64,000 nucleotides of DNA, taken from positions 1,872,001 to 1,936,000 of the forward strand of contig NC_014836.1 of assembly GCF_000177635.2 (NCBI RefSeq), written 5' to 3'. Below are positions 3,218-21,942 of this stretch, piece after piece (the first letter of the stretch is position 1; every line of letters begins with the position of its first letter). The DNA comes from Desulfurispirillum indicum S5 (GTDB taxonomy: Bacteria > Chrysiogenota > Chrysiogenetes > Chrysiogenales > Chrysiogenaceae). The translations under genes were made by a program, and so were the position numbers. Under the pieces are notes generated by a model. That model was not told the origin of the DNA. It worked only from the letters and a program-made list of their open reading frames with translations, and ran no database searches.

Positions 3218-3568
3218 TGGTGGAGGCGAGGGGAGTCGAACCCCTGTCCGAGACCATTTCCACAACCAACCCTACATGCTTGTCCGCTTGTTTGCTTTAG
3301 CCTTCCGGAGCCCGAGGCGGCACGGTATCCGAAAGCCGAGTTCTCCTGTTATCCTCGTCTTTGACCGGAGAGCACTGTCAAAGCAACAGCCTGCGATTTT
3401 CCACCATGGGGCCCTGCAGGCCGGGTCCCGTGGGGGTTAGTGCTGCTTACGCAGCAGCCAGAACGTTTTCGTCGTTGGCGTTTGTTGTTTTGCTGGTTTT
3501 TACAGGGCCACCAGCCCCCTGGCATGCGTCAATTGCTTCTGTGTTCCCGTCGAAACCAGTGCGCCCCC
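3218..3568 (-). ncRNA. ssrA: tmRNA (transfer-messenger RNA), tag ANDENVLAAA
   Basis: The 351-nt RNA rescues stalled ribosomes together with SmpB. The mature 5' end (GGGGGCG, from 3568) pairs over 7 bp with the 3' strand CGCCUCC before A-CCA, and the 3' end holds a T arm with TTCGA. CCA is encoded (3218-3220). Inside, the reading frame GCC AAC GAC GAA AAC GTT CTG GCT GCT GCG TAA gives the tag ANDENVLAAA, ending in the expected Ala-rich degron. smpB lies just upstream on the same strand, with a dispersed repeat between them. The exact resume codon is inferred by likeness to the E. coli tag. Confidence 0.95.
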
Positions 3569-3581
3569 AGATTGATGTGTT

Positions 3582-3713
3582 GGCAGGCAGCTGAAAAACC
3601 CTCATCTGCGGTGTTGCTCGCGGTCGCTCGTCACTGCAGCGTACGGGGAGTACGCTTCAATCCTTGCTTAGCGAGCGCCTTGCACCTGAGTATTTTTCAA
3701 CTGCCTGCGTGTT
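3582..3713 (+). repeat. Dispersed intergenic repeat, copy 1 (between smpB and ssrA)
   Basis: About 130 bp closely match the reverse complement of 49365-49496. Shared blocks include CATCTGCGG, a hairpin GCGTAC-GGGGA-GTACGC with its flanks, and GCGAGCGCCTTGCACCTGAG. The ends carry imperfect inverted repeats of the type GCTG..GAAAA and TTTTCAA..GCCTGC. There is no coding capacity. It looks like a non-autonomous mobile repeat (MITE-like). It lies 14 bp upstream of the mature tmRNA 5' end, so any local ssrA promoter would have to sit within or beside it. Confidence 0.75.
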
Positions 3714-3731
3714 AAGAGTTATTGGGAGTAA

Positions 3732-4184
3732 CTAACTGTGGCTTTTCAATGCCTGCTGCGCTTCGCGCTGGGCATCCTTCTGTTTCAGAGATTCACGTTT
3801 ATCGTGGAGTTTCTTGCCCTTGCCAAGAGCCACTTCCACTTTTACCTTACCGTTCTTAAAGTACATCTTTGTGGGGACAATGGCAAGCCCCCCCTGCTGG
3901 GCCTTGGCGGCCAGCTTGTCGATTTCCATCTTATGGGCCAGCAGTTTACGCACCCTGGTGGGATCGGGCGCCATGGGCCCCGCCTCTTCATAGGGGGAGA
4001 TATGGCACTGAAAGAGAAAGAGCTCTCCTCGGTCGACGCGGCAGTAGGCGTCCTTGAGGTTGACTTTTCCCTGGCGGATGCTCTTGACCTCCGAGCCCTT
4101 CAGGACAACTCCGGTTTCCAGTGTCTCCAGGATTTCAAAGTGGTGACGGGCGGATCGGTTATCGGAGATAATCTTGATGCCCAT
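3732..4184 (-). CDS. smpB: SsrA-binding protein SmpB
   Basis: The 150-residue protein binds tmRNA and brings it to stalled ribosomes. The family pattern is complete: N-terminal NRSARHHFEI, ETLETGVVLKGSEVKS, the block NLKDAYCRVDRGELFLF, PTKMYFKNGKVKVEVALGKG and the basic tail KLHDKRESLKQKDAQRE. Length is normal for the family. The ATG at 4182-4184 has a strong AAGGAGGAG site; an upstream in-frame ATG at 4220 lacks one. It lies upstream of ssrA on the same strand, so the two partners may be cotranscribed. Confidence 0.97.
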   Translation of the reverse strand: MGIKIISDNRSARHHFEILETLETGVVLKGSEVKSIRQGKVNLKDAYCRVDRGELFLFQCHISPYEEAGPMAPDPTRVRKLLAHKMEIDKLAAKAQQGGLAIVPTKMYFKNGKVKVEVALGKGKKLHDKRESLKQKDAQREAQQALKSHS

Positions 4185-4300
4185 ATGCTCCTCCTTCCCG
4201 GAAAAACAAAAACCTGCCACTGATTCAGTAACAGGTTAACCGTTTGCTATTGCACCTTGATGAAGTTGAACCCTCAGTTTTGGCGCTGGCCAATAAAAAA

Positions 4301-4376
4301 TGGTGACCCGTGAAGGATTCGAACCTTCGACCCTCTGATTAAAAGTCAGATGCTCTACCAACTGAGCTAACGGGTC
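4301..4376 (-). tRNA. tRNA-Lys (TTT)
   Basis: This 76-nt cloverleaf has acceptor GACCCGT/ACGGGTC, a D arm with GCTC..GAGC, anticodon loop CTTTTAA (anticodon TTT), T loop TTCGAAT, and an encoded CCA. It is the last of four tRNAs in a minus-strand cluster. Confidence 0.97.
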
Positions 4377-4413
4377 ACGCTCAGGCCTTTTTTCTGAAAA
4401 AAGACAAAAAAAA

Positions 4414-4490
<77 letters not shown>

Positions 4491-4501
4491 GCACTGAAAA
4501 A

Positions 4502-4577
4502 TGGTGGGTGGTACAGGGATCGAACCTGTGACCCTCGGCTTGTAAGGCCGATGCTCTCCCAGCTGAGCTAACCACCC
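4502..4577 (-). tRNA. tRNA-Val (TAC)
   Basis: This 76-nt cloverleaf has acceptor GGGTGGT/ACCACCC, anticodon TAC in the loop CTTACAA, T loop TTCGATC and an encoded CCA. It lies 11 bp upstream of tRNA-Asp and 2 bp downstream of tRNA-Glu. Confidence 0.97.
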
Positions 4578-4579
4578 AT

Positions 4580-4657
4580 TGGCATCCCGTAGGGGATTCG
4601 AACCCCTGTCGCCGCCGTGAAAGGGCGGTGTCCTAGACCGGGCTAGACGAACGGGAC
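4580..4657 (-). tRNA. tRNA-Glu (TTC)
   Basis: This 78-nt cloverleaf has acceptor GTCCCGT/ACGGGAT, anticodon TTC in the loop CTTTCAC, T loop TTCGAAT, discriminator G and an encoded CCA. It is the first gene after the cluster promoter. Confidence 0.97.
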
Positions 4658-7680: not shown

Positions 7681-7871
7681 CGGCGCGCCTCCATCATCTC
7701 GCTTCACTCGTTTCACTACGCGCAAACGTTCGTTATATGTTACTGGTTGATTTCCCTTGATATTCAGGATGAATATGGGCATATTCCACATTGCTCATAT
7801 GTGAAGCCTATCACATTGCACTCCATGCATCGAAACCGGGAACACTACATACACTTGCCAGGAGGCCTGAC

Positions 7872-9551
7872 ATGAGTCGAACAGGAAGCAGCACCATGAA
7901 ATTGCGGACGAGGATTATTCTGCTGACAGCACTTCTCATGGCGGGCATAATTATCGTGGGCATAAGCGGATACCGAGGTATCGACAACCTCTCCATGCGC
8001 ACCCAGAATATTGGGGAAGTGCGCATACCCGGCATGATCGCCCTGGCCAACCTGAACACTGAGCGCATGGTTATACGCGCGCAAACCCTTGACGTGATGC
8101 AGCATGAGCGCAATTTCCAGGCCCAGGGACAATTCCAGGACATCTTCCGGCAAAGGCAGGCATCCTGGAAGAATATTGATGCCAACTGGCAGACGGTCGC
8201 CAACCTGCCCCGCCAGTCCGAAGCGGGCCGCCGGGCCTGGACTGAGCTTCAGCAGCAGTATCAGGCCTGGCGAGCGGTGTATGTCGAGCTGGATGCCATT
8301 ATTGAAAAGCTGATTGCCCAGCGCACTCCAGCGGTGCAGCAGGAGCTCTTTGAGCAGTATCGTGTCACCGTGCAGCGCATGGTACCCCTCTCCGACGCCA
8401 TGGGCGCCACGATGCAGGCCATGGTGGACAATAACATTGTGGTAACCAACAACGCTGCTCGCGATGCCGTTGAACATGGGCTTTTCCTGGAGCGATTCAT
8501 TCTGCTGGTCGTCCTGACGGTCATCCTGGTGGCTTTGATCCTGGCGGGCTACATTATTCAGTCATCAAATCGCATAATCGTCAACGCCATTCGCGCCATA
8601 TCCGATGCCAACAACCAGGTTGTCAGCGCTTCTGATCAGATCGCCTCGGCGTCCAGCTCCCTGGCCGAAGGGGCCTCTGAGCAGGCGAACAGTGTGGAGG
8701 AAGTGACTGCGACCACCGAAGAGGCTACATCCATCAACAATCAGAACGCCGAAAACATCCGCGAGGCTGACCAGCTGGCAAACCAGGCTACCGGTGCCGC
8801 AAATCTCGGTTATGAAAAGATTCAGATGCTCATGGCATCCATGGAAGAGGTCAGTGCTTCATCGGAGCGCATATCTCACATCATCAAGACCATCGACGAA
8901 ATCGCCTTCCAGACAAATCTGCTGGCCCTGAATGCTGCTGTCGAAGCTGCCCGTGCAGGCGAGCACGGTCTGGGATTCGCCGTGGTGGCCGAAGAAGTAA
9001 AGAGCCTTGCCCAGCGCAGCGCCAATGCCGCCCGTGAAACTGCTGAGATCATCCAGCGCACCATCAGCCAGATACGCCAGGGCAATCACATGGCGGAGGA
9101 AACCAACACCGCTTTTGACGAAATACGCCAGCAGATCAAAAAAACCTCTGAGCTCATCAGCGAAATAACCGTATCGGTCAAAGAGCAGTCCGAGGGCATG
9201 AACCAGATTGCCACGGCAATGAGCCAGATCGACAAGGTCACCCAACAGAACGCTGCCAGTTCCGAGGAAGCCGCCGCCGGTGCCGAGCAACTGAATGCTC
9301 AGGCCGTAGCCATGCTGCAGAGCGTCGCGGAAGTTGCGGCGTTCGTCGGCTACTCCATGGGGAGTGCCTCAGCTCACCGCGCCCAGAGCAGTGGCACCCG
9401 GAAAAACCCTGTCCGCCAGCTTGCTCCGGCTTTTGCGCCCTCCGCCGCAAAGCCTGCCGAGCAAAAGGGAAAGGCCATATCCCAGCGCCAGCGCAATAAC
9501 AGCCGCGATGAAATATATCCGCTGGACGACGAAGACCTCAGGGAGTTCTAA
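7872..9551 (+). CDS. Methyl-accepting chemotaxis protein, transmembrane
   Basis: The 559-residue chemoreceptor has a first membrane helix at about residues 15-35 ([20 protein letters not shown]), a helical periplasmic four-helix-bundle type sensor to about 200, and a second helix near 210-235 ([19 protein letters not shown]). There is no clear HAMP domain. The cytoplasmic coiled coil ends in the conserved hairpin tip [20 protein letters not shown]. The ATG at 7872 follows AGGAGG; an ATG at 7896 is an alternative. The 190 bp upstream hold no clear promoter. Copy 3 of the dispersed repeat begins at its stop codon. Confidence 0.93.
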
Positions 9552-9633: not shown

Positions 9634-10919
9634 ATGGAATTTACGGCCTTTCTCCATGGCACAATATTTCTGATTTTCGCCGCCATCGCCCTCTGCCTGC
9701 ATTTTTCGCGGGCAGGGCAGTTCTGGGCGTGGATCAGCGTTTTTGCCGCGCTCCATGGCACCGCCATATGGTTGCGGCTCATGGCCGAAGGGTTCGCCTT
9801 CACGGCACTTGAGCCCATACCCGTCCTGCTGCACGTCACAGCACTTTTCGCCCTCTTTGAGGCGGCGGTGAAGTGCCGAAACCAATTTCGGCGCTGGTGG
9901 CGCGTGGCCATGATCGCGGCGGCGGCTCTTGTGACCCTTGTACTGATGGTAGCCACTTCAGCAACCGCGATGAACTCGCCCATGCTTCTGGCTATGTGAA
10001 CCAGTTCCTCGATCGCGTCCACGACATTGTGGTCGGCGTGCGCATGTCAGCCCATGGGGTGGCATCCGCCAGCGAGCAGCTCAGCAGCTCCTCCAGCCAG
10101 ATGAGCGCCGCCATAAATTCCCAGGCGGAAGGCATCTCCCAGATCGCCACCGCGACACTGGAAATGACCCAGACCGTCAATGAGGTTACGCGAAATATCT
10201 CTTCCATTCAGGAAAGCTCCCATCAGGCCCTTGATCAGGCCCGCCAGGGAGGGAAGCTTGTCCAGCTCTCCACCCGTGAAATGGAAGCCATCGCCCGCGA
10301 GGCAGCCGAGGCCACGCGTTCCGCCCAATCCCTTGAGGAGAAAGCCGCACGGGTTGAGGAGGTCATTCAGGTCATTAACGACATCGCCGACCAGACCAAC
10401 CTGCTGGCCCTCAATGCCGCCATAGAGGCCGCCCGCGCCGGTGACGCCGGCAGAGGCTTTGCGGTGGTGGCCGATGAAGTTCGCAAACTGGCCGAGCGCA
10501 GCACGGAATCCACCCAGGAGATCATCAGCATTGTGCAGAGTATTCAGGGGGGCGTTGACCAGGTCACAGGTGCCATGTCTTCGGTAAACGAGAAGACCCA
10601 GAAGGGCAATGAGCTTTCCCAGCAGGCCAACAGTGCCTTCGTGGAAATCCTCGGAGGAATGGAAAGCCTGCAGGAGCTGATTGAGCAGAACGTGGCTGCC
10701 ATGGAGGAGATGTCAACCACGGCCGACCATATCAGCAGTGATATTCAGACGATTTCAGCTGCCGCCGAAGAATCCGCCCAGGCTTCAGAGGAAGTCGGGC
10801 ACGCCTCTTCTGATCTGGCACGGCTGGCTGCTGATGTACAGGATCGCCTGAGTGCCTTCCATACGGAAGACGCGGAACTGTCGGCCCAGCTGCCCGGCTT
10901 GCCGCCGGCGCGGCGATGA
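9634..10919 (+). pseudogene. Methyl-accepting chemotaxis protein, frameshifted
   Basis: Frame one (9634-9999) encodes a membrane domain of about four hydrophobic helices with no periplasmic sensor, ending shortly after [18 protein letters not shown] different frame, starting about 9950, then continues with [21 protein letters not shown], which looks like the end of a HAMP domain, followed by a full signalling domain with the tip [19 protein letters not shown] and a normal end at 10919. The break is near 9945-9960 and the first half of a HAMP domain seems absent, suggesting a small deletion. The second part alone has an internal ATG at 9873 but no evident ribosome-binding site. Confidence 0.7.
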
Positions 10920-10947
10920 AAGGACGGGAGTGAAGTTGACACGCGAA

Positions 10948-11634
10948 TCAGGGTACCATATAGCCCAGGTCTTTGATGCTGACCACGGCGTCATTGCCGA
11001 TTTTTCCGCGCAGGCGGTAGACGAGGGTGCGCAGGCTTCCGGGGGCCATGCCCCCTTCATCCTCAAGGTGAATGCAGATATCGGGGGCGTTGATGACCTG
11101 GGCGCGACGACGCAGCAGGTAGTCGAGCAGCAGTTTCTCATTGCGGGTCAGGATGCTGGTTCTGCCTTCGAAAAGTGCCTCACCGGTCACACTGTTATAA
11201 CTGGCACCGCTTTTCAGGGTGGTAACCAGCCGGCCACGTTGATTCATCTCCTCGACACAGCGGCGCAGGGTCTCCTTGAGCTGCGACATGTTGACTGGCT
11301 TGACCAGGTACTCCATGAGCCGCAGTCGCACAGCTGCCGAGACATTCTCAAAATCGCTGTAGGCGGTCAGGATGATGATGGGGAGATCGGGATCATCGCG
11401 ACGGATCTCGGCGGCAACCTCCAGTCCGCTGAACTGAGGCATCATGAGATCCAGGATGGCGACATCAACACAGTGGCGGGCGTACAGATCCAGGGCCTCA
11501 CGGCCATCAGTGGCAGTGATGGCCTCGCCAAAGAAAAGCTGCAGCGTTTTCTGCAAAGACGCGCGGGCCATGGCATCGTCCTCGGCAATCAGTACCGTCA
11601 TTTCTTTGAGTGGCGCCAGACTCGCCTGAAACAT
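10948..11634 (-). CDS. Response regulator with C-terminal winged-helix-like domain
   Basis: The 228-residue product has a receiver domain (LIAEDDAMARASL acidic pocket, phosphoacceptor Asp in VAILDLMMP, ILTAYS, and Lys in LVKPVN). The C-terminal 100 residues end like an OmpR-type winged helix (ILTRNEKLLLDYLLRRRAQV and LRTLVYRLRGKIGNDAVVSI). The ATG at 11632-11634 has AAGGAG seven bases upstream; the longer frame to 11700 has none. It is divergent from a second response regulator. Its kinase is probably one of the PAS kinases nearby. Confidence 0.85.
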   Translation of the reverse strand: MFQASLAPLKEMTVLIAEDDAMARASLQKTLQLFFGEAITATDGREALDLYARHCVDVAILDLMMPQFSGLEVAAEIRRDDPDLPIIILTAYSDFENVSAAVRLRLMEYLVKPVNMSQLKETLRRCVEEMNQRGRLVTTLKSGASYNSVTGEALFEGRTSILTRNEKLLLDYLLRRRAQVINAPDICIHLEDEGGMAPGSLRTLVYRLRGKIGNDAVVSIKDLGYMVP

Positions 11635-11790
11635 GCCAAGCTCCTTCGGAAACTGGTGATGGATAATCGTGAGAATACCATTCCCTGCCATGATTTCCAA
11701 GTGTCATAATGTGACAATCCCGTGACATGGGCAGGGTATGATCACGGCTGAAGAAAAATCATCATGAAAACGAATTTCACAAGGATGCCT

Positions 11791-12162
11791 ATGTCAGTTC
11801 TGGACGACTCTTTCAAAGACAAAACGGTTCTCATAGTTGAAGATGATTCCATGGCACGGCTTGGCCTGCAGCGTTTGCTGCGATTCCGCTTTCAGGATAT
11901 TCACCTGGCAGTCCATGGCCGCGATGGCCTGGAAAAAGTCGCACAGTTTCATCCCGATGTGGTGCTGACCGATCTGGAGATGCCAGTGATGAGCGGAAGT
12001 GATATGCTCAGGCAGCTCAAAAGCAACTCTCCTGAGCTCCCTGTCATCGTCATCACGGCATTTGCCGACGACGCCAGCCACGTACCTGAAGCCGATGCCG
12101 TGCTGACCAAGCCGATTCTCAAGGCAGAGCTGCTGCAGGCGCTGCGCAAGTGCCTGCGCTGA
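11791..12162 (+). CDS. Stand-alone receiver-domain response regulator
   Basis: About 123 residues form a single receiver domain: TVLIVEDDSMARLGL, phosphoacceptor Asp in PDVVLTDLEMP, ITAFADD and the Lys in VLTKPI. There is no output domain, so it likely acts in a phosphorelay or by binding a partner. The ATG at 11791 follows AAGGA; upstream ATGs at 11764 and 11785 are possible. The large PAS kinase follows 58 bp downstream and is the obvious partner. Confidence 0.85.
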   Translation: MSVLDDSFKDKTVLIVEDDSMARLGLQRLLRFRFQDIHLAVHGRDGLEKVAQFHPDVVLTDLEMPVMSGSDMLRQLKSNSPELPVIVITAFADDASHVPEADAVLTKPILKAELLQALRKCLR

Positions 12163-12220: not shown

Positions 12221-15217
12221 ATGTTCTTTCTGCGCGCTTTTCTTCTGCCGTCAGCCCGCCGGGCGCTGAGCCTCATCGCGTTGCTGATGTGCACCGCCAC
12301 CTCGGCGCTCGGCCAGTCATACACCCTGGGAGTACTGTCCTACCGCCCGGTGGAAATTACCCGGGAACGCTTTCAACCCCTGGTTGACTATCTGAATCAG
12401 CATATTCCCCATTTCTCCATTGAGCTGCGCGTCCTGAGCTACGCAGACCTGGAGCGCGCGCTCACCAACGGAGAGATCGATTTTGTGCTGACAAATCCGG
12501 CGCACTATATTCTGCTGGCCCGCCAGAACAGTCTGTCCTCCCCGTTGGCGACAATCATCCCCATGGAACATGGCATACCGGTGCGGGGATTTGCCGGTGT
12601 CATCCTGGTTCCTGCCGAGCGCGATGAACTGCAGACAATAGCCGATCTGAAGGGAAAAACCGTTGCCGTGGTTACCACAAAATCCCTTGGCGGCTACCAG
12701 ATGCAGGCGTTCGAGCTACTTGGTCACGGCGTGCAGCCACACCGGGATATCCGCATCAAGGAAACGGGAATGCCCCATGATTCTGCCATCCTGACCATGC
12801 TCCATGGCCAGACTGACGCCGCTTTTGTGCGCAGCGGTATCATGGAGTCCATGATACGGGAAGGCAGGCTGCAGGCCTCTGCAATACGGGTGCTCAACCC
12901 TGTCGAGGCGCGGGGAATCCCCTATGCTGCCTCCACTGCCGTCTACCCGGAGTGGCCTCTGGCCGCTCTTGCCCATACCAATGAACAGGTTGCGCTTCTG
13001 CTGGCATCGGCTCTCTACGCGCTGCCCCACGGCAGCAAGCTGGCGCGCCAGGTCGGAATTTACGGGTTTTCCGTTCCCGCTGACTACCACAGTGTTGAAA
13101 GACTGATGCGCGAACTGCGCCTGCCACCCTTTGACCTGGCTCCCGAATTCACCCTCAAGGACGCCTGGGAACGCTGGGAACTGCCCATCGCGCTTTTGCT
13201 GCTGGTTGTCATTCTGATTCTCCTGCTCAGCGCAGCACTCTTCCTGGCTCGCCGCCAGGCGCTCCGGGAGCAGCAGCATGGCCAGATTCTCCTGCACCGG
13301 CTGGAGGAAGCCCAGCGCATAGCCCGCCTGGGCCACTGGGAAGCCAATCTGGTGAGCGGGCAGCTGTGGTGGTCAGATACCATCTACGCCATTTTCGGCT
13401 TTGATCAACAGACCTTCTCGCCAAGCATTCAGGCCTTCCATGACCGTGTTCATCCCGAAGACCTGCCCCTGGTACTGGCCAGCGAGGAGCGCGCCCGCCG
13501 CGATGGCATCCACGATGTGCAGCATCGCATCATTCGACCCGATGGTGAAGTACGCTGGGTTCACGAACTGGCACGGCTGGAACGTGATGAACAGGGAAAC
13601 CTGGTTCGCCTCATCGGTACCGTTCAGGACATCAGCGCACAGAAGCGCGTGGAACAGGCGCTGACAGAGAGCGAACTGCGACTGCGCCAGTTTGCCGAAA
13701 ACAGTGACACCATATTCTGGGTGCGCACCGCTGATATCATGCACTACATCAGCCCCGGCTACGAAAAGGCCTGAGGACGATCCTGCCAAAGCCTCTACGA
13801 TGACCCGGCGTCTTTTCTCGCGTCTGTGTGGCACGAAGACAGGCGGCGAGTGCAGAAGTATTTTGACCTGGAGATTGCAGAGCACCTGCCCTTTGACCTG
13901 GTGTACCGTATCCAGCGGCCCGATGGCTCGCTGCGCTGGATACACGCACGCAGTTTTCCGGTGTACGACCATGATGGCGCATTCTCCTGCTGGACCGGCG
14001 TTGCCGAGGATGTCACGACCCAGAAAGAGTATGAAGACACGCTGGAGCGATTCAATGACGAGCTGATCAAGCGGGTGGAGGAAGAAGTCTCGCGACGCAT
14101 GGCCACTGAGCAAAGCTACCGGACCCTTTTTGAACACTCACCGGAGGGCATTCTCCTGCTGGACCGTACCGGTCGTTTCTGCGAATGCAATCCTGCTGCA
14201 GCCAGGATGCTGGGACGTGAACCGGGTCAGATCATCGGCAAGCGGCCGCAAGACCTTTCCAGTCTCTCTGGGAATTTCTCGTCCCAAAACACCTCGGCGC
14301 ACGTTGACGCCGTGATCAACCGCTCTTTCGCCGGTGATGTCCAGGTATTCGAGTGGAAAGCCACTACCGCCGATGGTGGCGAAATTCTGCTGGAAGTACT
14401 GCTCTCACCCCTTGGAGCGCATCGTCCCGATCACCTGCTGGTGATGTGGCGCGACATCGGCGAGATCAGGAAACTGCAGCGGGAGAAACAATTACAGGAG
14501 ATTGCCCTGATTCAACAGTCAAAAATGGCAGAACTGGGCAGTATGATGGGGGCCATCGCCCACCAGTGGAAGCAGCCCCTCAACAATATTGCCCTCTACA
14601 CGCAATTTCTGCCCGAACAGCTCAAGTCCGGCGAGCTTGATGCCGCCACCCTCAATGAGGCGGCCTTCAATATCATGAAACTGGTGAACTTCATGGCGCG
14701 CACCATTGACGACTTCCGTGACTTCTTCAAGCCGTCAGAAGTCGAGACGACATTCAACCTGCTTGAAAGCATTCAGGGCGTCCTTGAGCTGATTGGCGGC
14801 CAACTGCTCCGGGACAGTGTCGACCTGCGCCTGTGCACCACATGCCGCAGCTACCATGTCCGGGGAGTGAAGAACGCATTCCAGCAGGTGATTCTCAATA
14901 TAGTCAACAACGCCCGTGAAGCCCTTGTGGAACGCAGAACACCGGAACCTTTCATCAGAATCAGCTGCCAGAAGGTCGCAGGGCACATCCATGTCACCAT
15001 AAGCGACAATGGCGGAGGAATTGCCGAACACCTGCTGCCTGACAAAATCTTTGAGGCCTTTGTCACCAGCAAGGGTGATGGAGGAACCGGCATCGGCCTG
15101 TCCCTGAGCCGAAGCATCCTGCACAAAATGAACGGCTCCATTGGAGCTGCCAACACCGCTGAAGGTGCCTGCTTCACCATCCATCTCCCCGACGCGGGAG
15201 GTGACGTTTTTCATTGA
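12221..15217 (+). pseudogene. PhnD-domain/PAS sensor histidine kinase interrupted by an in-frame TGA
   Basis: One frame of 998 codons is broken only by TGA at 13772-13774 (codon 518); both sides are in register. Order: signal peptide (1-30), a phosphonate-binding-like periplasmic domain (about 32-300), a membrane helix (about 320-345), PAS 1 (360-475), PAS 2 (480-610, carrying the TGA), PAS 3 (630-750), then a kinase core with AHQWKQPLNN (His about 781), NIVNNAREAL, DNGGG and GTGIGLSLS. The stop falls where related PAS domains have Trp (YEK-x-GRSCQSLY), so a single TGG to TGA change explains it. The 3' part from 13826 could be made as a soluble kinase, but it has no clear ribosome-binding site. 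Confidence 0.8.
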
Positions 15218-15526
15218 GAAAATGTCGGGGAATTCCCATTATTCAGATATTACCTGTTCACTTTCGGAAATCACGGAGCACTATGATGCGACATCTCAAG
15301 GCCAGGATCTTCCCCTCCATGATTCTGCAGCAAACGACGCCTGCGCGTATCACCGGATACGCGCAGGGAAGTGCTGTAGCGCCTTGGGGTCGGATCGTCC
15401 TGGGCAGGCGCAGAGTTGCCGCGTTTCACACAGAGTATTTCACCTGAACAACAGCTATTGCAGACGGTTTCCGAAAAACATCTCCGGAAATACTGTAACG
15501 AAACGTAATAAGCATGCCAATTGATG
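15218..15526 (+). other. Intergenic region with a perfect 12-bp hairpin and a doubtful small ORF
   Basis: The gap between the interrupted kinase and the next promoter holds a perfect inverted repeat at 15340-15351/15356-15367 (CCTGCGCGTATC with a 4-base loop). No T run follows, so it is not a typical terminator. An ORF from an ATG at 15283 or 15286 to 15447 (about 54 aa, very basic) has GGAG upstream but no recognisable domain, and the hairpin lies inside it. I see nothing else. Confidence 0.35.
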
Positions 15527-15556
15527 TTGAATGTTCTTTTTGAAAAGGTGTATACT
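15527..15556 (+). promoter_or_regulatory. Likely sigma-70 promoter of the PhnD-like/kinase/HD-GYP genes
   Basis: TTGAAT (15527-15532) and TATACT (15551-15556) are 18 bp apart, about 100 bp upstream of the binding-protein gene. The sequence around it is AT-rich compared with its surroundings. Confidence 0.55.
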
Positions 15557-15654
15557 TTAGGAGTTTTTCTTATCTCCTTTCCGGGAGCGGCATACATGCC
15601 TGCTGCCCACACCTGTTGCCATCAACATGATGGAGACACGGGCACACAGGATGT

Positions 15655-16536
15655 GTGCCGAATCCACAACTGAAGGAGCTTCCCATTCGCTACCTTTTCA
15701 TTACTGCTCTCATAGCCGGCTGTTTTCTGCAGGGTGTCGGGGCGCGTGAGTTGACCTACGCGCCCCTGCCCCTTGAAAATCCCCGTCAGGTCATGACCCA
15801 GAGCCAGCCCCTGGTCAAATACCTGGAAATGGGGATGGGCCAGGAGGTGACGGTACGCCTGCTGGCCCATCACGGACAGGTGGTCAGCGAGTTTGCCGAG
15901 GGCAACATTGACCTCGCCCTCCTGGGACCCCTGCCCGTAATGGCGCTGTGGCATATGGAGGTGGATGCCGTGCCACTGGTTTTCTTTCACGAAAGCGATG
16001 GAACCCCGGCCTACACCTGCGCCATTGCGGTCCCCTTTGACGGCCATGCCACTCTTGCTGAACTCACCGGTGAAACCGAGGGACCTTTCGCTCTGACACA
16101 CCCCCTCTCCACCTGTGGGTACTTCGCCACGTACTGGCAACTGCAAAGGGCTGGTGCAGAAATATCCGCTCTTCCCCACGCCTTCCTTGGGAACCACGAA
16201 GATGTTGCCCTGGCCCTGGCCCGTGGTCACTATGCTGCCGGCGGGTTGAAAGCCACAGTTGCCAGACGCTATGCCCATATCGGAGTGCGCATTCTGGCGG
16301 AGTCTCCGCCGTTGCCCGGATTCTCACTGGTAGCCAATGCCCGCACCATGAACGCTGAGCAGATGGAGGCCATACGCCACTTACTGCTCGACATCCCCCC
16401 GGACACTCTTCACTCTTTTCTGCTCGGCCGCTTTGGCTTCAGCCCCAGTACAAGGGAGGATTTCCTGACCATGGAGCAGATGCTGCGGGAACTTGGGATG
16501 CCCATGGAGTACTACCTGGAGGTATCCCATGAGTAA
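15655..16536 (+). CDS. PhnD-like periplasmic binding protein (phosphate/phosphonate-type)
   Basis: The product has a signal sequence (RYLFITALIAGCFLQGVGA) and then a periplasmic binding fold: LTYAPLPLENPRQVMTQSQPL, YLEMGMGQEVTVRL, EGNIDLALLGPLPV, and GYFATYWQLQRAGAE. It resembles the PhnD family but stands beside a kinase instead of an ABC transporter, so it probably serves as a soluble sensor. The GTG at 15655 is the canonical start, but AAGGAG at 15673-15678 is ideally spaced for ATT at 15685, a rare start that would give a standard signal peptide. The stop overlaps the kinase start by 8 bp. Confidence 0.8.
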   Translation: MPNPQLKELPIRYLFITALIAGCFLQGVGARELTYAPLPLENPRQVMTQSQPLVKYLEMGMGQEVTVRLLAHHGQVVSEFAEGNIDLALLGPLPVMALWHMEVDAVPLVFFHESDGTPAYTCAIAVPFDGHATLAELTGETEGPFALTHPLSTCGYFATYWQLQRAGAEISALPHAFLGNHEDVALALARGHYAAGGLKATVARRYAHIGVRILAESPPLPGFSLVANARTMNAEQMEAIRHLLLDIPPDTLHSFLLGRFGFSPSTREDFLTMEQMLRELGMPMEYYLEVSHE

Positions 16537-19500
16537 ACTCTCCCTGAAGCGCAGCCTGCGATTCAGTATCGTGATTTTCCTGGGAAGTCTGCTGGTGGTA
16601 ACACTGTACCTGGACTATCGCCGCGACGAGGGTATTCGACACTATCTGGATATGACCACGGCAGCCCAGGACATAGCCTGGCAGGCGGCCATCAACCTTC
16701 ACCGCAACAGTGTTGAAACCTATTTCACTGAATATGTCATGCGTGGGGATATTCTCGAAATTCTGCGCGCAGCCCAGGAGAGCGCCACCCGCGACCGGGC
16801 GCGCATGGAGCTGTACCGCAGCCTGTTTGCCATCAACGAACACCTGCAGAGCAAAGGCCTGCGTCAGCTGCACTTTCATCTGCCCGATGGCGAGAGCTTC
16901 CTGCGCTTTCACAAACTCGATCTCTACGGCGACAAGCTCTGGGATGTGCGCGAAGCAATCCGCATTGCCAATACCGAGCTGCGGCCTGTCTTTGGCTTTG
17001 AAACCGGTCGCATTGTTTCGGGTTTTCGCAATGTCTTTCCCATAATCACCCCTGAAGGCCAGCACCTTGGCAGCGTTGAACTCAGCATGCCCTTTGAAGC
17101 CGTGCGCCATGAGGTGGCCAGGCTCCTGCCCGAACGGGAATTCGAAATGCTCCTGTGGAGAGAGTATGTCGACTCCATCATCTTTGATGAACAGCAGCTT
17201 CTCTATGAGCCCTGGGTGGGACACCCCGAACTCATGGTGGAAGATCCTTACCGCCAGCTGCCCGACGCGCCACCCCCACTTTCAGAGGATGCTCAGCGCG
17301 TCGCGGCACTTCTCCCGGACAGCGTCGCTGCCATGAAAGTTCTGGCCAGGGGCCAGAGCAGCGCAGCGGCCATCAAGCTTGACGGACGCTACCATACGGT
17401 GACATTTACGGCCATTTACGATACCCGTCAGCGCCAGGTGGGTTATCTGGCCTCCTATGCCCCGGCCCCCCGCCTGTGCTCCTTAACCTATAATTTTTTC
17501 ATCAGCCTTGGTTTTTCCACCCTGGTGCTGCTGATACTGAGCGGCGCGCTGTACTCTCTCATGAGGAGCAGGGCGATGCTGGCCCATGAAAGACGCCATC
17601 TGCAGGTCATCAACGACACCCTGGGCGAAGGACTCTATGTAATGGACTCCAGCGGCGTGATCACCAATGTCAATCAACGGGCCACGGAACTCCTGGGATA
17701 TACCCGTGATGAACTGCAAGGTGCCATAGCCCATGATCTCTTCCACTGCCATAACGAGAACGGGCGCATCCCCCTTGAGAAATGCCCCATTTTCAATACG
17801 GTTCATCAGGGGGAAGAGTACGACAACAGAGAAGCCTTTCGACACTCCAGCGGGACTATTTTCACGGCGCGCGTCATCAGCCGCCCGGTAATGCATGAAG
17901 GACAGGTGGTCGGGTCGGTGACGTCCTTTGCCGATATTACGGAAAAGCTGCGCACGGAGCAGGAGCTGCGCGACAACGAGGAGCGGTTGCGGCTCACCAT
18001 GGAAGCCGTTTCCATCGGCCTGTGGGATTGGAATCTGCTGGACGATCGGGTGCAGTGGGACGATGTGTGCTATGAGATGCTTGGATATGCTCCCGGCGCT
18101 TTCCCATTGCGATATGAAGACTGGCGCAGGCTGATCCATCCCGATGACGTGGACGCGGCAACCGACCAGGTACTGGAGCAACTGGAGTGCGGACGCTCCT
18201 TCGTCATCGAATTCCGCTATCGCAAAGCAGACGGAGAGTGGCTCTGGGTTCAGGGTCGGGGCAATGTGGTGCAGTGGGACGCCAATGGAGGCATTGTTCG
18301 CGTCCTGGGCACTCACACGAATATCCAGCAGCGCAAAGAAGCGGAACTGGCCCTGGCCCATTCGGAAATGCGTCAGAAAACCCTCATGCAGTCAAGCCCC
18401 GCTGTTCTGTACGCCATGCCACCTGGAAATTTCACCCAATTTACCTATATCAGCGAAAATGTGCATTCGGTGCTTGGCTATCGCCCTGCCGATATCGTTT
18501 CTGAACCTGGCTGGATGGCTGAGGTGGTCCATCCCGACGACATTGAAGGACTTCTGCAGAAAAACAGCCAGTGGCTGCGGGATGGCGCTGTCGGGCACTG
18601 CTCCCATGAATTTCGCGTAAAGACGATCGAGCACCACTCACTGTGGGATGGGCAGTGGATATGGATTGAGGACATCATGTCAGCGGTGCGCGATGAGCGA
18701 GGGCGAATTATTGAGCTGGTGGGGGCTTTCCTGGACATCAGCGACCGCGTGCAGTTTGAACAGCGCCTGAGCAAAATTGCCGGCCATGTTCCGGGAATGA
18801 TCTTCCAGTATTGCCAGCTGCCCGACGGCACGTCCTATTTTCCGTACTCCAGCAACGGGATATGGGATATTTACGGCGCCGGACCGGAGGTTGTTTCCAG
18901 AAGCGCCGAGCCGGTCTTTGCCACCCTGCATCCCGACGACAGAGAGTATGTTGCCCACACCATCAGAGAGTCGGCACAGCACCTGAGCTCCTGGCAATGC
19001 GAGTACCGGGTACAGCACCCCAGCGGCAGGACACTCTGGGTTCGCGGTGAGTCGACGCCCCAGCGCGGCGCCGATGGCAGCACAATCTGGCATGGCTATA
19101 TCAGTGACATTACCCGTCGCAAGGAAGCGGAACGACTCCTGGCTGATCGCGAAGAGCGCTATCGGTCCATTCTGGCGGCGCTGGCGGAAGGTATTGTGAT
19201 GCAGAGCGCCAGTGGCGAGATCATCTCCTGCAATGAAGCAGCGCAGCTGCTGCTTGGCCTCTCCACAGAGCAAATGGAGGGACGCCGATCCACAGATCCC
19301 CACTGGAAGGCCATACGTGAAGATGGCACCCCCTTTCCCGGAGAAGAACACCCGGCCATGCATACGCTGCGCACAGGAGAGCCACAGCGCAATGTCATCA
19401 TGGGCGTGCATCGCCCCGATGGCTCGCTGGTGTGGATTCTCATCAACTCGGAACCGCTGTATGCTGGCGGGCAGGAGGCGCCCTACGCCGTGGTGACGTC

Positions 19501-20716
19501 TTTTGTGGACATCACCGAACGCAAAAAATACGAGGCTATGCTGGAAGGCTTTAACGACGCGCTCTCCCAGCAGGTGGCAAAGGAGCTCAATCGCGCGTTG
19601 GAGCAGGAAACCCGTTTCCATCACCTGTTTAACGCCATTCCCGATGCGGTGGTGGCCCATGGATATGAGCCGGACGGCCTCCCCGGGCGTTTCAGTGAAG
19701 TGAACGACAATGCCTGTACGCTCTTTGGCTACACCCGTGAGCAGTTCCTGACACTGACCCCGATGAACCTGCACTGCCCCGAAGATCGGGATGGCGTACT
19801 GGCCAACGCGACCGCTCTCCATGAGCAGGGCCGCATTGAATTCGAATGCGACCTGCTCACGGCTGATGGGAGCGTCTTTGCGGCTGAAGTCACGGTACAC
19901 CGCCAGGAACTTTCCGGCCGCATCATGGCGCTGACCGTTATCCGCGATATCACCGAGAAAAAATACCTTGAGCGCGAACGCCAACTGGAACAGCAGACCA
20001 TGATTCAGCAGGCCAAGATGGCCGAACTCGGCAGCATGATGGGTGCCATCGCCCACCAGTGGAAGCAGCCCCTGAACAACATCGCGCTGTTGCTGCAGTT
20101 TCTTCCCGAAATGTACGAAGCCGGTGAGCTCAACCAGGAGAACATAGACGAAACCGTGCGCGATATCATGAACCTGCTCGGATTCATGTCCAATACCATT
20201 GACGATTTCCGCCAGTTCTTCAAGCCCTCCACCGAGATCACGGCCTTTGACCTGTGTCGCTGTGTCGGAGATGTTCTGGAGCTCATCAAAGGCCAGCTGA
20301 GCAAGGATTCCATAACCGTTCAGCAGGAATCCTGCTCTCCCGTCATGGTATGCGGCTACCACAGCGAATTTAAACAGGTGGTGCTCAATGTCATCAACAA
20401 CGCGCGGGAAGTCATGCTGGAGAAACATGTTCAGCCGGCAATCATAGAGATTTCCTTTGAAGTGACTGCCCGCAACGCCATACTGCGTATCGCCGATCAT
20501 GGGGGCGGAATTCCACAGCATCTCCTGCCCGAAAAGCTCTTTGAACCATTTGTGTCAACCAAAGGAGAGCAGGGAACAGGCATTGGCCTCTCCCTGGCGC
20601 GCAGAATCATGCTCAGGATGCATGGCTCCATTGAAGCCGGCAATACTGAAAGAGGAGCGGTATTCACCCTGATGCTGCCCTTGTGCGACCAATCTTCCAA
20701 CCATCAAGGATACTGA
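16529..20716 (+). CDS. Multi-PAS transmembrane sensor histidine kinase, 1395 aa
   Basis: The ATG at 16529 overlaps the binding-protein gene and follows GGAGG. Order: membrane helix 1 (about 9-29), a periplasmic Cache-like sensor (30-318), helix 2 (319-345), six PAS domains (about 360-470, 487-600, 611-735, 749-860, 874-1000, 1027-1145), and a kinase core with AHQWKQPLNN (His about 1176), NVINNAREVM, DHGGGIPQ and GTGIGLSLA. PAS signatures include VQWDDVCYEMLGY and several HPDD motifs. There is no receiver domain, so the partner is a separate regulator. The coupled start suggests that the PhnD-like protein feeds this kinase. An HD-GYP gene follows directly. Confidence 0.92.
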   Translation: MSKLSLKRSLRFSIVIFLGSLLVVTLYLDYRRDEGIRHYLDMTTAAQDIAWQAAINLHRNSVETYFTEYVMRGDILEILRAAQESATRDRARMELYRSLFAINEHLQSKGLRQLHFHLPDGESFLRFHKLDLYGDKLWDVREAIRIANTELRPVFGFETGRIVSGFRNVFPIITPEGQHLGSVELSMPFEAVRHEVARLLPEREFEMLLWREYVDSIIFDEQQLLYEPWVGHPELMVEDPYRQLPDAPPPLSEDAQRVAALLPDSVAAMKVLARGQSSAAAIKLDGRYHTVTFTAIYDTRQRQVGYLASYAPAPRLCSLTYNFFISLGFSTLVLLILSGALYSLMRSRAMLAHERRHLQVINDTLGEGLYVMDSSGVITNVNQRATELLGYTRDELQGAIAHDLFHCHNENGRIPLEKCPIFNTVHQGEEYDNREAFRHSSGTIFTARVISRPVMHEGQVVGSVTSFADITEKLRTEQELRDNEERLRLTMEAVSIGLWDWNLLDDRVQWDDVCYEMLGYAPGAFPLRYEDWRRLIHPDDVDAATDQVLEQLECGRSFVIEFRYRKADGEWLWVQGRGNVVQWDANGGIVRVLGTHTNIQQRKEAELALAHSEMRQKTLMQSSPAVLYAMPPGNFTQFTYISENVHSVLGYRPADIVSEPGWMAEVVHPDDIEGLLQKNSQWLRDGAVGHCSHEFRVKTIEHHSLWDGQWIWIEDIMSAVRDERGRIIELVGAFLDISDRVQFEQRLSKIAGHVPGMIFQYCQLPDGTSYFPYSSNGIWDIYGAGPEVVSRSAEPVFATLHPDDREYVAHTIRESAQHLSSWQCEYRVQHPSGRTLWVRGESTPQRGADGSTIWHGYISDITRRKEAERLLADREERYRSILAALAEGIVMQSASGEIISCNEAAQLLLGLSTEQMEGRRSTDPHWKAIREDGTPFPGEEHPAMHTLRTGEPQRNVIMGVHRPDGSLVWILINSEPLYAGGQEAPYAVVTSFVDITERKKYEAMLEGFNDALSQQVAKELNRALEQETRFHHLFNAIPDAVVAHGYEPDGLPGRFSEVNDNACTLFGYTREQFLTLTPMNLHCPEDRDGVLANATALHEQGRIEFECDLLTADGSVFAAEVTVHRQELSGRIMALTVIRDITEKKYLERERQLEQQTMIQQAKMAELGSMMGAIAHQWKQPLNNIALLLQFLPEMYEAGELNQENIDETVRDIMNLLGFMSNTIDDFRQFFKPSTEITAFDLCRCVGDVLELIKGQLSKDSITVQQESCSPVMVCGYHSEFKQVVLNVINNAREVMLEKHVQPAIIEISFEVTARNAILRIADHGGGIPQHLLPEKLFEPFVSTKGEQGTGIGLSLARRIMLRMHGSIEAGNTERGAVFTLMLPLCDQSSNHQGY

Positions 20717-20718
20717 AC

Positions 20719-21942
20719 ATGAGTGCCCACATTGTCAAAATTACCATTGCCCAACTTGAGCCGGGGATGTATGTGCATGATCTGAGCAGTGAGTGGACCG
20801 ACGTCCCCTTTGGAAAACGCTTTCTGGTGACCGACCAGGGCATGGTGGAACGGATACGCGACTTTGGTATCCGTGAACTCTATGTGGATACTCTCAAGGG
20901 AAATTATCCCCAGGGAGTCTCTCACCCGCTGCCCCAGGTGGAGCAGAGACTTGATCACGAGCTGCAGCAGGTGGTCAGCGAACCGGAACCGGAACCACAG
21001 GTCAGCTACATGGAAGAAATTTCCATCGCCCGGCGGGTCCACGAGGAAGCTGCCGTCAAAGTCACCAGCATTCTCCACGATGCCCGCATGGGAAAGCGCA
21101 TTGAGGCGGAACACCTTGAACCCGTGGTGGCCAACATGGCTCAGTCCATTTTCCGCAACCCCAGCGCCATGATGAGCCTTGGGCGCATCCGACATGTGGA
21201 TCAGTACACCTTCGAGCACTCCGTCAGCGTAGGGACTTTTCTGATTGCTTTCGCGAAACACCTGAATTTTGACGAAAACATCATCCACCATATCGGCATG
21301 GGAGCCCTGCTGCACGACATCGGCAAGACCAGGGTTCCCGATACCATTCTCAACAAACCCGGCAAACTCAGTGATGAAGAGTTTGTGGTCATGAAACGCC
21401 ACGCCCAGTACAGTGGCGAGATTCTCTCCCAGTCAAAATCCCTCTCTTCAATCGCCGTTGAAGTTGCGGTGCAGCATCACGAACGATTTGATGGCACCGG
21501 CTACCCCAAGGGCCTCAAAGGAGCACAGATCAGTCCCTATGGGCAGATGGCGGCCGTAGTGGACGTCTATGACGCCATTACTTCAGATCGCTGCTACCAC
21601 AAAGGGGAGGCTCCTACGGCGGTGCTGCGCAAACTGCTGGAGTGGAGCAAGTTTCACTTCAACCCCACGGTGGTGCAGCAGTTCATCAAGTGCGTGGGGA
21701 TCTACCCGTCGGGAACTCTGGTGAAGCTCAAGAACAAGCAGCTGGCCATTGTCCTGGACTCGGGGCCATCCAAAACACTGCAGCCGACCATCCGGGTTAT
21801 CTTTGATACGGCTCAGCTCAAGTATGTCCGGCCCTTTACCGTGGATCTGCAATCTGATGAAGGCAAGTTCTACGGCGTGACGGGCTTTGAAGATCCTGCT
21901 GCCTGGAAAATTCGAGTGGAAGATTTTATTCCGCGCCAGTAG
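20719..21942 (+). CDS. HD-GYP cyclic-di-GMP phosphodiesterase with DUF3391-type N-terminus
   Basis: The 407-residue protein starts at an ATG with AAGGA upstream, 2 bp after the kinase stop. The N-terminal 65 residues (LEPGMYVHDLSSEW) match the DUF3391 type. The HD-GYP domain shows LLHDIGKTRVPD, HHERFDGTGYPKGL and DVYDAITSDRCYHK, so the metal and substrate residues are present. It likely degrades cyclic di-GMP, making it a plausible output of the kinase next door. There is no receiver domain, so coupling would need an intermediate. Confidence 0.92.
   Translation: MSAHIVKITIAQLEPGMYVHDLSSEWTDVPFGKRFLVTDQGMVERIRDFGIRELYVDTLKGNYPQGVSHPLPQVEQRLDHELQQVVSEPEPEPQVSYMEEISIARRVHEEAAVKVTSILHDARMGKRIEAEHLEPVVANMAQSIFRNPSAMMSLGRIRHVDQYTFEHSVSVGTFLIAFAKHLNFDENIIHHIGMGALLHDIGKTRVPDTILNKPGKLSDEEFVVMKRHAQYSGEILSQSKSLSSIAVEVAVQHHERFDGTGYPKGLKGAQISPYGQMAAVVDVYDAITSDRCYHKGEAPTAVLRKLLEWSKFHFNPTVVQQFIKCVGIYPSGTLVKLKNKQLAIVLDSGPSKTLQPTIRVIFDTAQLKYVRPFTVDLQSDEGKFYGVTGFEDPAAWKIRVEDFIPRQ

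Follow-up and report, generated by a model that had tools for sequence, protein, structure and literature searches.

The question raised by this locus is what the clustered sensor genes of Desulfurispirillum indicum S5 (Chrysiogenota) form together and to which output they are connected. The window, which is the whole 64,000-bp stretch of DNA that was analysed, covers bases 1,872,001–1,936,000 of the single-contig 2,928,377-bp genome. D. indicum S5 respires selenate, selenite, arsenate, nitrate, and nitrite (PMC3368425). According to the original prediction, which was made from the DNA sequence, a PhnD-like periplasmic domain occurs twice in this region, once fused to a kinase at 12.2 kb and once as a separate (split) protein encoded before a six-PAS kinase and an HD-GYP enzyme. 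Both copies were proposed to sense an oxyanion or phosphonate-like ligand and to control cyclic di-GMP. The present analysis suggests a different division of the cluster. The split protein (15655–16536) and the kinase behind it (16529–20716) probably form a bipartite periplasmic receptor that belongs to a widespread family, here called the Cys-pair PhnD/dCache family. The kinase would signal to receiver proteins, the HD-GYP enzyme would serve as a cyclic di-GMP arm, and the fused gene would be a separate sensor. What the data show is the domain make-up of the proteins, the coupling of the genes, the conserved pairing, and the exchange of outputs among relatives.

The split binding protein and its dCache kinase

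The gene at 15655–16536 (plus strand) encodes a PtxB-like periplasmic binding protein of the PhnD fold, which is matched by PF12974 (Phosphonate-bd) with E=1.2e-39. PtxB is the top Foldseek match of its AlphaFold model (predicted local distance difference test score, pLDDT, 86.6) and also the best match by sequence. The ATG of the kinase gene (16529–20716, plus strand) overlaps the 3′ end of the binding protein gene by exactly 8 bp. The kinase is a membrane protein composed of a transmembrane helix, a dCache_3 domain, a second transmembrane helix, six PAS domains (six stretches with TIGR00229), HisKA with the motif AHQWKQPLNN, and HATPase_c; the overlap, the six PAS domains, and the motif are all as originally described. 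Its output is that of a histidine kinase and not of a diguanylate cyclase. The periplasmic dCache domain, with approximate limits at 16661–17465 (plus strand; PF14827, 3.7e-9), is presumed to be the docking site for the binding protein. The model of the sensor region (pLDDT 90.8) has dCache structures among its Foldseek matches, and the region is homologous to the sensor of GGDEF-EAL proteins linked to PhnD proteins. We infer that the ligand-loaded PhnD-fold protein docks on this domain and sets kinase activity, the direction of the effect being part of the same inference.

The subfamily of the split protein is marked by two cysteines. Cys122, in a Tyr-x-Cys motif (codon 16018–16020, plus strand), and Cys154, in an STCG motif (codon 16114–16116, plus strand), are cysteines in 92 of 92 family members, and His181 (codon 16195–16197, plus strand) is a histidine in the same 92. 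These two are the only cysteines after the signal region in 70 of the 92 sequences. The conservation of Cys154 may be inflated because the STC motif stood in one of the two patterns used to scan for relatives, while that of Cys122 is free of this bias. When 385 genomes were searched with a profile, Cys-pair members scored 303–396 bits and all others at most 161 bits, and the Cys-pair motif was not present in the top-scoring non-members inspected. A search of the contig collection with the split protein alone returned no close relatives. PtxB is a transport protein, and that of P. stutzeri, unlike the split protein, has serine at both positions. A lipoprotein reading was rejected, since the lipobox-like LIAGC occurs in the split protein only and not in its relatives.

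A comparison with the arsenite sensor AioX was made at the seven positions of the AioX pocket. AioX has Tyr88, Cys106, Tyr131, Ser161, Ser163, His192, and Asp210, whereas the split protein has His, Gly, Tyr, Ser, Cys, His, and Lys. Arsenite-binding Cys106 is thus replaced by Gly, Ser163 by Cys (Cys154), and Asp210 by Lys. His181 aligns with the ligand residue His192, and the second cysteine lies two residues past the pocket tyrosine. An AioX-type arsenic sensor was therefore rejected as an identity for the split protein. Its ligand would be small and probably anionic. The proposal of an oxyanion or phosphonate-like ligand derives from the fold, and the evidence gathered names no ligand. A tentative and rather doubtful extension is that the invariant cysteines form a dithiol site in the cleft. 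In that case, the family may sense thiol-reactive or sulfane-sulfur species, a metalloid, or the periplasmic redox state instead of a plain oxyanion, and a dCache receptor of exchangeable output may relay the signal to cyclic di-GMP. Two Arcobacter-type loci with rhodanese-GGDEF-EAL genes and the many sulfur-cycling hosts are compatible with the dithiol proposal but do not show it.

Distribution and outputs of the Cys-pair family

PF12974 genes were mapped across the phylum, and the gene surroundings of most strong matches were inspected. Four types of context were found: genes of ATP-binding cassette (ABC) transporters, X-S-R triplets that often lie by enzymes with a twin-arginine translocation (TAT) signal, TtrS-like fused kinases, and the split clade. 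The pair of the split clade is conserved in five loci of the phylum, namely L039, L040, L041, L042, and L044. The PhnD gene is followed by a dCache kinase in L039 and L040, by a dCache hybrid kinase in L041, L042, and L044, and by a dCache-PAS-GGDEF-EAL protein in L041, L042, and L135. A scan of the contig collection, seeded with five split-clade members and run with two patterns, returned 80 loci. Their hosts are Campylobacterota, Thermodesulfobacteriota, alpha-, beta-, and gammaproteobacteria, Calditerrivibrio (Deferribacterota), and a few others. Genes of the related loci were called as longest open reading frames. Their domains were assigned with custom profiles built on domains that Pfam had confirmed, and Pfam was applied directly to check a few of the calls.

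A dCache protein lies directly behind the PhnD gene in 73 of 82 cases, and the gaps or overlaps are usually of a few bases. The dCache receptor ends in a kinase in 31 cases, in GGDEF in 20, and in GGDEF-EAL in 14, and the rest are mostly cut by contig ends. On a quick tree the output changes at least 14 times, of which at least three changes are forced by well-supported branches. These results showed that the cytoplasmic output has been swapped repeatedly between kinase, GGDEF, and GGDEF-EAL. Where the receptor is a kinase, the next gene encodes a cyclic di-GMP enzyme in 12 of the 26 readable loci, and eight of these are REC-HD-GYP proteins (REC, receiver). Against a background of 3.4% of genes this gives a binomial p of 1.7e-11, a value that overstates independence because the loci are interrelated. 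The eight loci with the order PhnD, kinase, and REC-HD-GYP belong to Desulfo-type bacteria. In most complete loci a cyclic di-GMP enzyme is present, either as the dCache receptor or as the product of a gene that follows it. The originally proposed control of cyclic di-GMP is thus supported for the class. No recurrent metabolic partner that would point to a ligand was found among 81 flanking genes scanned with Pfam and NCBIfam. Rhodanese was also considered as a general ligand clue and set aside; beyond the two Arcobacter-type genes, one weak match was found in other loci.

Bipartite arrangements of this kind are known from XAC2383-XAC2382, NspS-MbaA, and AioXSR. XAC2383 and XAC2382 are reportedly co-transcribed and interact, and their outputs are said to be swapped in other phyla. 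As in that pair, a PhnD-family periplasmic protein is encoded directly with a cache-domain membrane receptor, and a cyclic di-GMP output is likely. XAC2383 is, however, outside the family profile matches (5ub3 is absent at E 0.01) and corresponds in fold only, and the part of its sequence that was inspected contains no Cys pair. The D. indicum receptor differs from XAC2382 in having a kinase output with a separate HD-GYP enzyme. NspS-MbaA of Vibrio cholerae is similar in that a periplasmic binding protein acts on a membrane receptor that modulates cyclic di-GMP. In contrast, NspS binds polyamines and is not of the PhnD family, and the domain content of MbaA includes no kinase.

In the AioX, ArxX, and ArrX systems, a PhnD-like periplasmic sensor feeds a histidine kinase (S) that acts with a regulator (R), and ArrX is known from the related Chrysiogenes arsenatis (PMC5908839). 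The split protein resembles these in being a PhnD-like sensor paired with a histidine kinase. Unlike in AioXSR, there is no X-S-R order with a molybdenum enzyme among the adjacent genes scanned and no sigma-54 regulator beside the pair. A review named SBP_bac_3 as the only member of the periplasmic-binding-protein clan studied in cyclic di-GMP networks (PMC8846402). A search of the open-licence literature for PhnD proteins with diguanylate cyclases yielded nothing on the Cys-pair family, although an earlier description may have been missed in this search, and the subfamily is apparently undescribed.

Together, these data define a sensory module of a Cys-pair PhnD protein and a dCache receptor that occurs in several phyla and mostly ends in cyclic di-GMP. 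Many of its hosts are sulfur- or nitrate-cycling bacteria, and its ligand has apparently been named by nobody. Ligand screening and a cyclic di-GMP readout are straightforward for this module, given its conserved two-Cys cleft and the GGDEF versions that occur naturally as a single gene.

Several individual loci were noted. The Arcobacter-type genes at L180:11453-14392 and L186:229-3168 encode 979-aa proteins and adjoin a PhnD-dCache kinase pair; the L180 protein contains rhodanese (two stretches), PAS, GGDEF, and EAL domains (Pfam), and the L186 protein matches it. Proteins that join a PhnD or periplasmic-binding-like domain to PAS-GGDEF-EAL in one chain, as fused counterparts of the pair, are encoded in phylum genomes at L141:5443-8712, L143:2982-6230, and L144:3009-6212. 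Their PhnD match is weak, and the domain may belong to another binding-protein family. The PhnD proteins of L184 and L185 are identical, and they come from a Candidatus Gracilibacteria bin and a Sulfurospirillaceae bin, both in the Sandtown series, which probably reflects misbinning.

The interrupted fused sensor

The second PF12974 match (1.9e-45) lies in an open reading frame of 517 aa at 12221–13774 (plus strand), which encodes a TtrS-like PhnD domain, a transmembrane helix, a PAS domain, and part of a second PAS domain. The double occurrence of the PhnD-like domain, fused and split, was thereby borne out, but the fused gene is not an intact kinase gene. An in-frame TGA (13772–13774, plus strand) interrupts the translation inside a PAS domain at a conserved tryptophan position. 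The remaining frame (13775–15217, plus strand; listed start GTG 13826) encodes the rest of this PAS domain, another PAS domain, HisKA (HQWKQPLNN), and HATPase_c. The closest homologues have Trp at the TGA position, namely L092 (VWGR), L039 (VWGH), and the D. indicum paralogue L093 (VWGYSCQSLYDAPASF). Homologues with an open frame are present in G002 (two), G001, G009, G012, G041, and G084.

The frame stays open for about 480 codons past the TGA with normal GC content by codon position; the change from Trp to TGA is therefore recent, an assembly error, or tolerated. It is conceivable, and somewhat short of an even chance, that the gene still yields a functional sensor, whether the TGA is read through, translation starts anew at GTG 13826, or the assembly is wrong at this codon. 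The single stop, the intact frame and codon composition beyond it, and the completeness of both halves apart from the stop speak for such a product. An assembly error is opposed by the coverage of 198x 454 and 222x Illumina reads with base polishing (PMC3368425), and the genome lists 48 pseudogenes (PMC3368425), which also counts against a functional gene. Selenocysteine at the TGA was rejected, as the conserved residue is Trp and not Cys, and the RNA fold after the TGA is unremarkable (z 0.77); both points weigh against a working sensor as well. The fused gene is best read as a sensor of its own, TtrS-like in type, whose frame is broken by a nonsense codon in this assembly. The record of this gene is thereby corrected, as it is interrupted in the sequenced strain.

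TtrS is the closest named relative of the fused sensor, over the sensor and transmembrane region. The match to the NCBIfam TtrS model NF040750 (2.5e-44) covers residues 31–372, and its score of 151.7 bits is far under the model cut-off of 750. Unlike TtrS, the fused sensor continues with PAS domains and the HQWKQPLNN kinase and carries the TGA. At the AioX pocket positions its PhnD domain has Tyr, Asn, Phe, Ser, Gly, His, and Arg. With a TtrS-like domain in the fused unit, a PtxB-like domain with its Cys pair in the split unit, and different residues in the two pockets, the units are unlikely to sense the same ligand. A single ligand for both units was therefore not supported, and the fused kinase is moreover interrupted. 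The two kinases share interchangeable parts: in the G002 kinase, a sensor half resembling that of the split kinase is combined with a catalytic half resembling that of the fused kinase.

TtrS-related stand-alone PhnD proteins adjoin HQWKQPL kinases in L086–L091. In L086–L090 (five genomes) the protein and the kinase occur together, and a gene close to this pair in L086, L087, L089, and L090 has a ITIDPITRIEGHLR motif suggestive of the large subunit of a NiFe hydrogenase. A large signalling cluster at L081:4198-19001 (G001, probably Chrysiogenes arsenatis) contains a dCache hybrid kinase, a TtrS-like PhnD hybrid kinase, further kinases, and an HQWKQPL kinase, and a PAS-GGDEF-EAL gene overlaps the TtrS-like PhnD hybrid kinase gene by 4 bp.

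The HD-GYP enzyme, phospho-partners, and surrounding genes

The gene at 20719–21942 (plus strand) encodes a candidate cyclic di-GMP phosphodiesterase with a DUF3391 domain (8.5e-26) and an HD-GYP domain (HD_5, 1.6e-27). Its ATG is located 2 bp past the kinase stop, as originally predicted, and its motifs HDIGK and HHERFDGTGYP (consensus HHExxDGxGYP) are intact. Two proteins upstream are candidate phospho-partners of the kinase. The first is a stand-alone receiver of 132 aa (11764–12162, plus strand; Response_reg 4.5e-22) with the phospho-acceptor Asp and Lys motifs, and the second is a response regulator with a receiver and a winged-helix output (10948–11700, minus strand; Pfam Response_reg 6e-25, Trans_reg_C 5e-6) that is divergent from the cluster. 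These two genes, the dCache_3 domain of the kinase, and the DUF3391 domain were absent from the original prediction. In G002, a receiver (L039:15971-16342) directly behind the kinases is 53% identical to the 11764 receiver. A 52% identical orthologue of the response regulator lies about 4.5 kb from the PhnD-kinase pair, and all of these share one region with the PhnD-dCache-kinase pair.

Several observations weigh against a direct route from the kinase to the HD-GYP enzyme. The enzyme has no receiver domain, its closest orthologue in G002 (66% identity) lies about 17 kb from the pair on the same contig, and no HD-GYP gene is adjacent to the pair in the five phylum loci. The cyclic di-GMP genes next to the same kinase type in Arcobacter-type loci also have no receiver, and the link between kinase and cyclic di-GMP may therefore be one of co-expression only. 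The case for control of cyclic di-GMP, supported by other genomes in which such a gene trio also occurs, is accordingly weaker for this copy, whose HD-GYP adjacency is not kept in the phylum. Both the receiver and the response regulator accompany the pair in G002, and they are likelier than the receiver-less HD-GYP enzyme to be the direct phospho-partners of the kinase.

The missing receiver and the lack of adjacency in the five phylum loci also favour the alternative that the HD-GYP gene is a chance neighbour and that the kinase affects transcription or motility solely by way of the two receiver proteins, with cyclic di-GMP outside this copy. With 19 GGDEF and at least 12 HD-GYP matches in the D. 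indicum genome, a chance neighbour is possible. The alternative is nevertheless considered unlikely; the 2-bp spacing, the REC-HD-GYP order in the eight Desulfo-type loci, and the predominance of cyclic di-GMP enzymes among the other receptors of the family stand against it. The PhnD-like protein is most improbably an orphan transport protein or scavenger placed before the kinase by accident, for although its closest relatives in structure and sequence include the transport proteins PtxB and PhnD, no transporter was found among the adjacent genes scanned, and the dCache partner follows directly in most loci.

In the favoured reading of the pair as a receptor, phosphate would most likely pass from the kinase to the 11764 receiver, the 10948–11700 regulator, or both. 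The HD-GYP enzyme, judged by its operon position and its relatives, would be co-transcribed with the pair and would lower cyclic di-GMP as one output arm.

Neither PhnD unit lies by an ABC transporter, as had been predicted, since no transporter ATPase or permease was found among the adjacent window genes scanned. The same genes included no molybdoenzyme, and an Rfam search of the region matched no RNA element. The open reading frame at 10852–11709 (plus strand) overlaps the response regulator on the opposite strand and is probably no gene. Two methyl-accepting chemotaxis proteins are encoded shortly 5′ of the cluster (window 7791–9551 and 9873–10919), and a homologue of the second is located about 1 kb from the HD-GYP orthologue in G002. 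This proximity in both genomes hints at a link to motility. A tmRNA gene (tag ANDENVLAAA) with adjoining Lys, Asp, Val, and Glu tRNA genes occupies window 3218–4657 (minus strand).

Outside the window, at 402–404 kb of the genome, D. indicum encodes a further PhnD-like protein (L046:8627-9577) in which the seven residues of the AioX pocket are all present, the equivalent of Cys106 among them. Its X-S-R genes (PhnD-like protein, histidine kinase, and receiver protein) adjoin a gene for an 845-aa TAT-signal protein, and they are likely the ArrXSR-type arsenic sensor of D. indicum.

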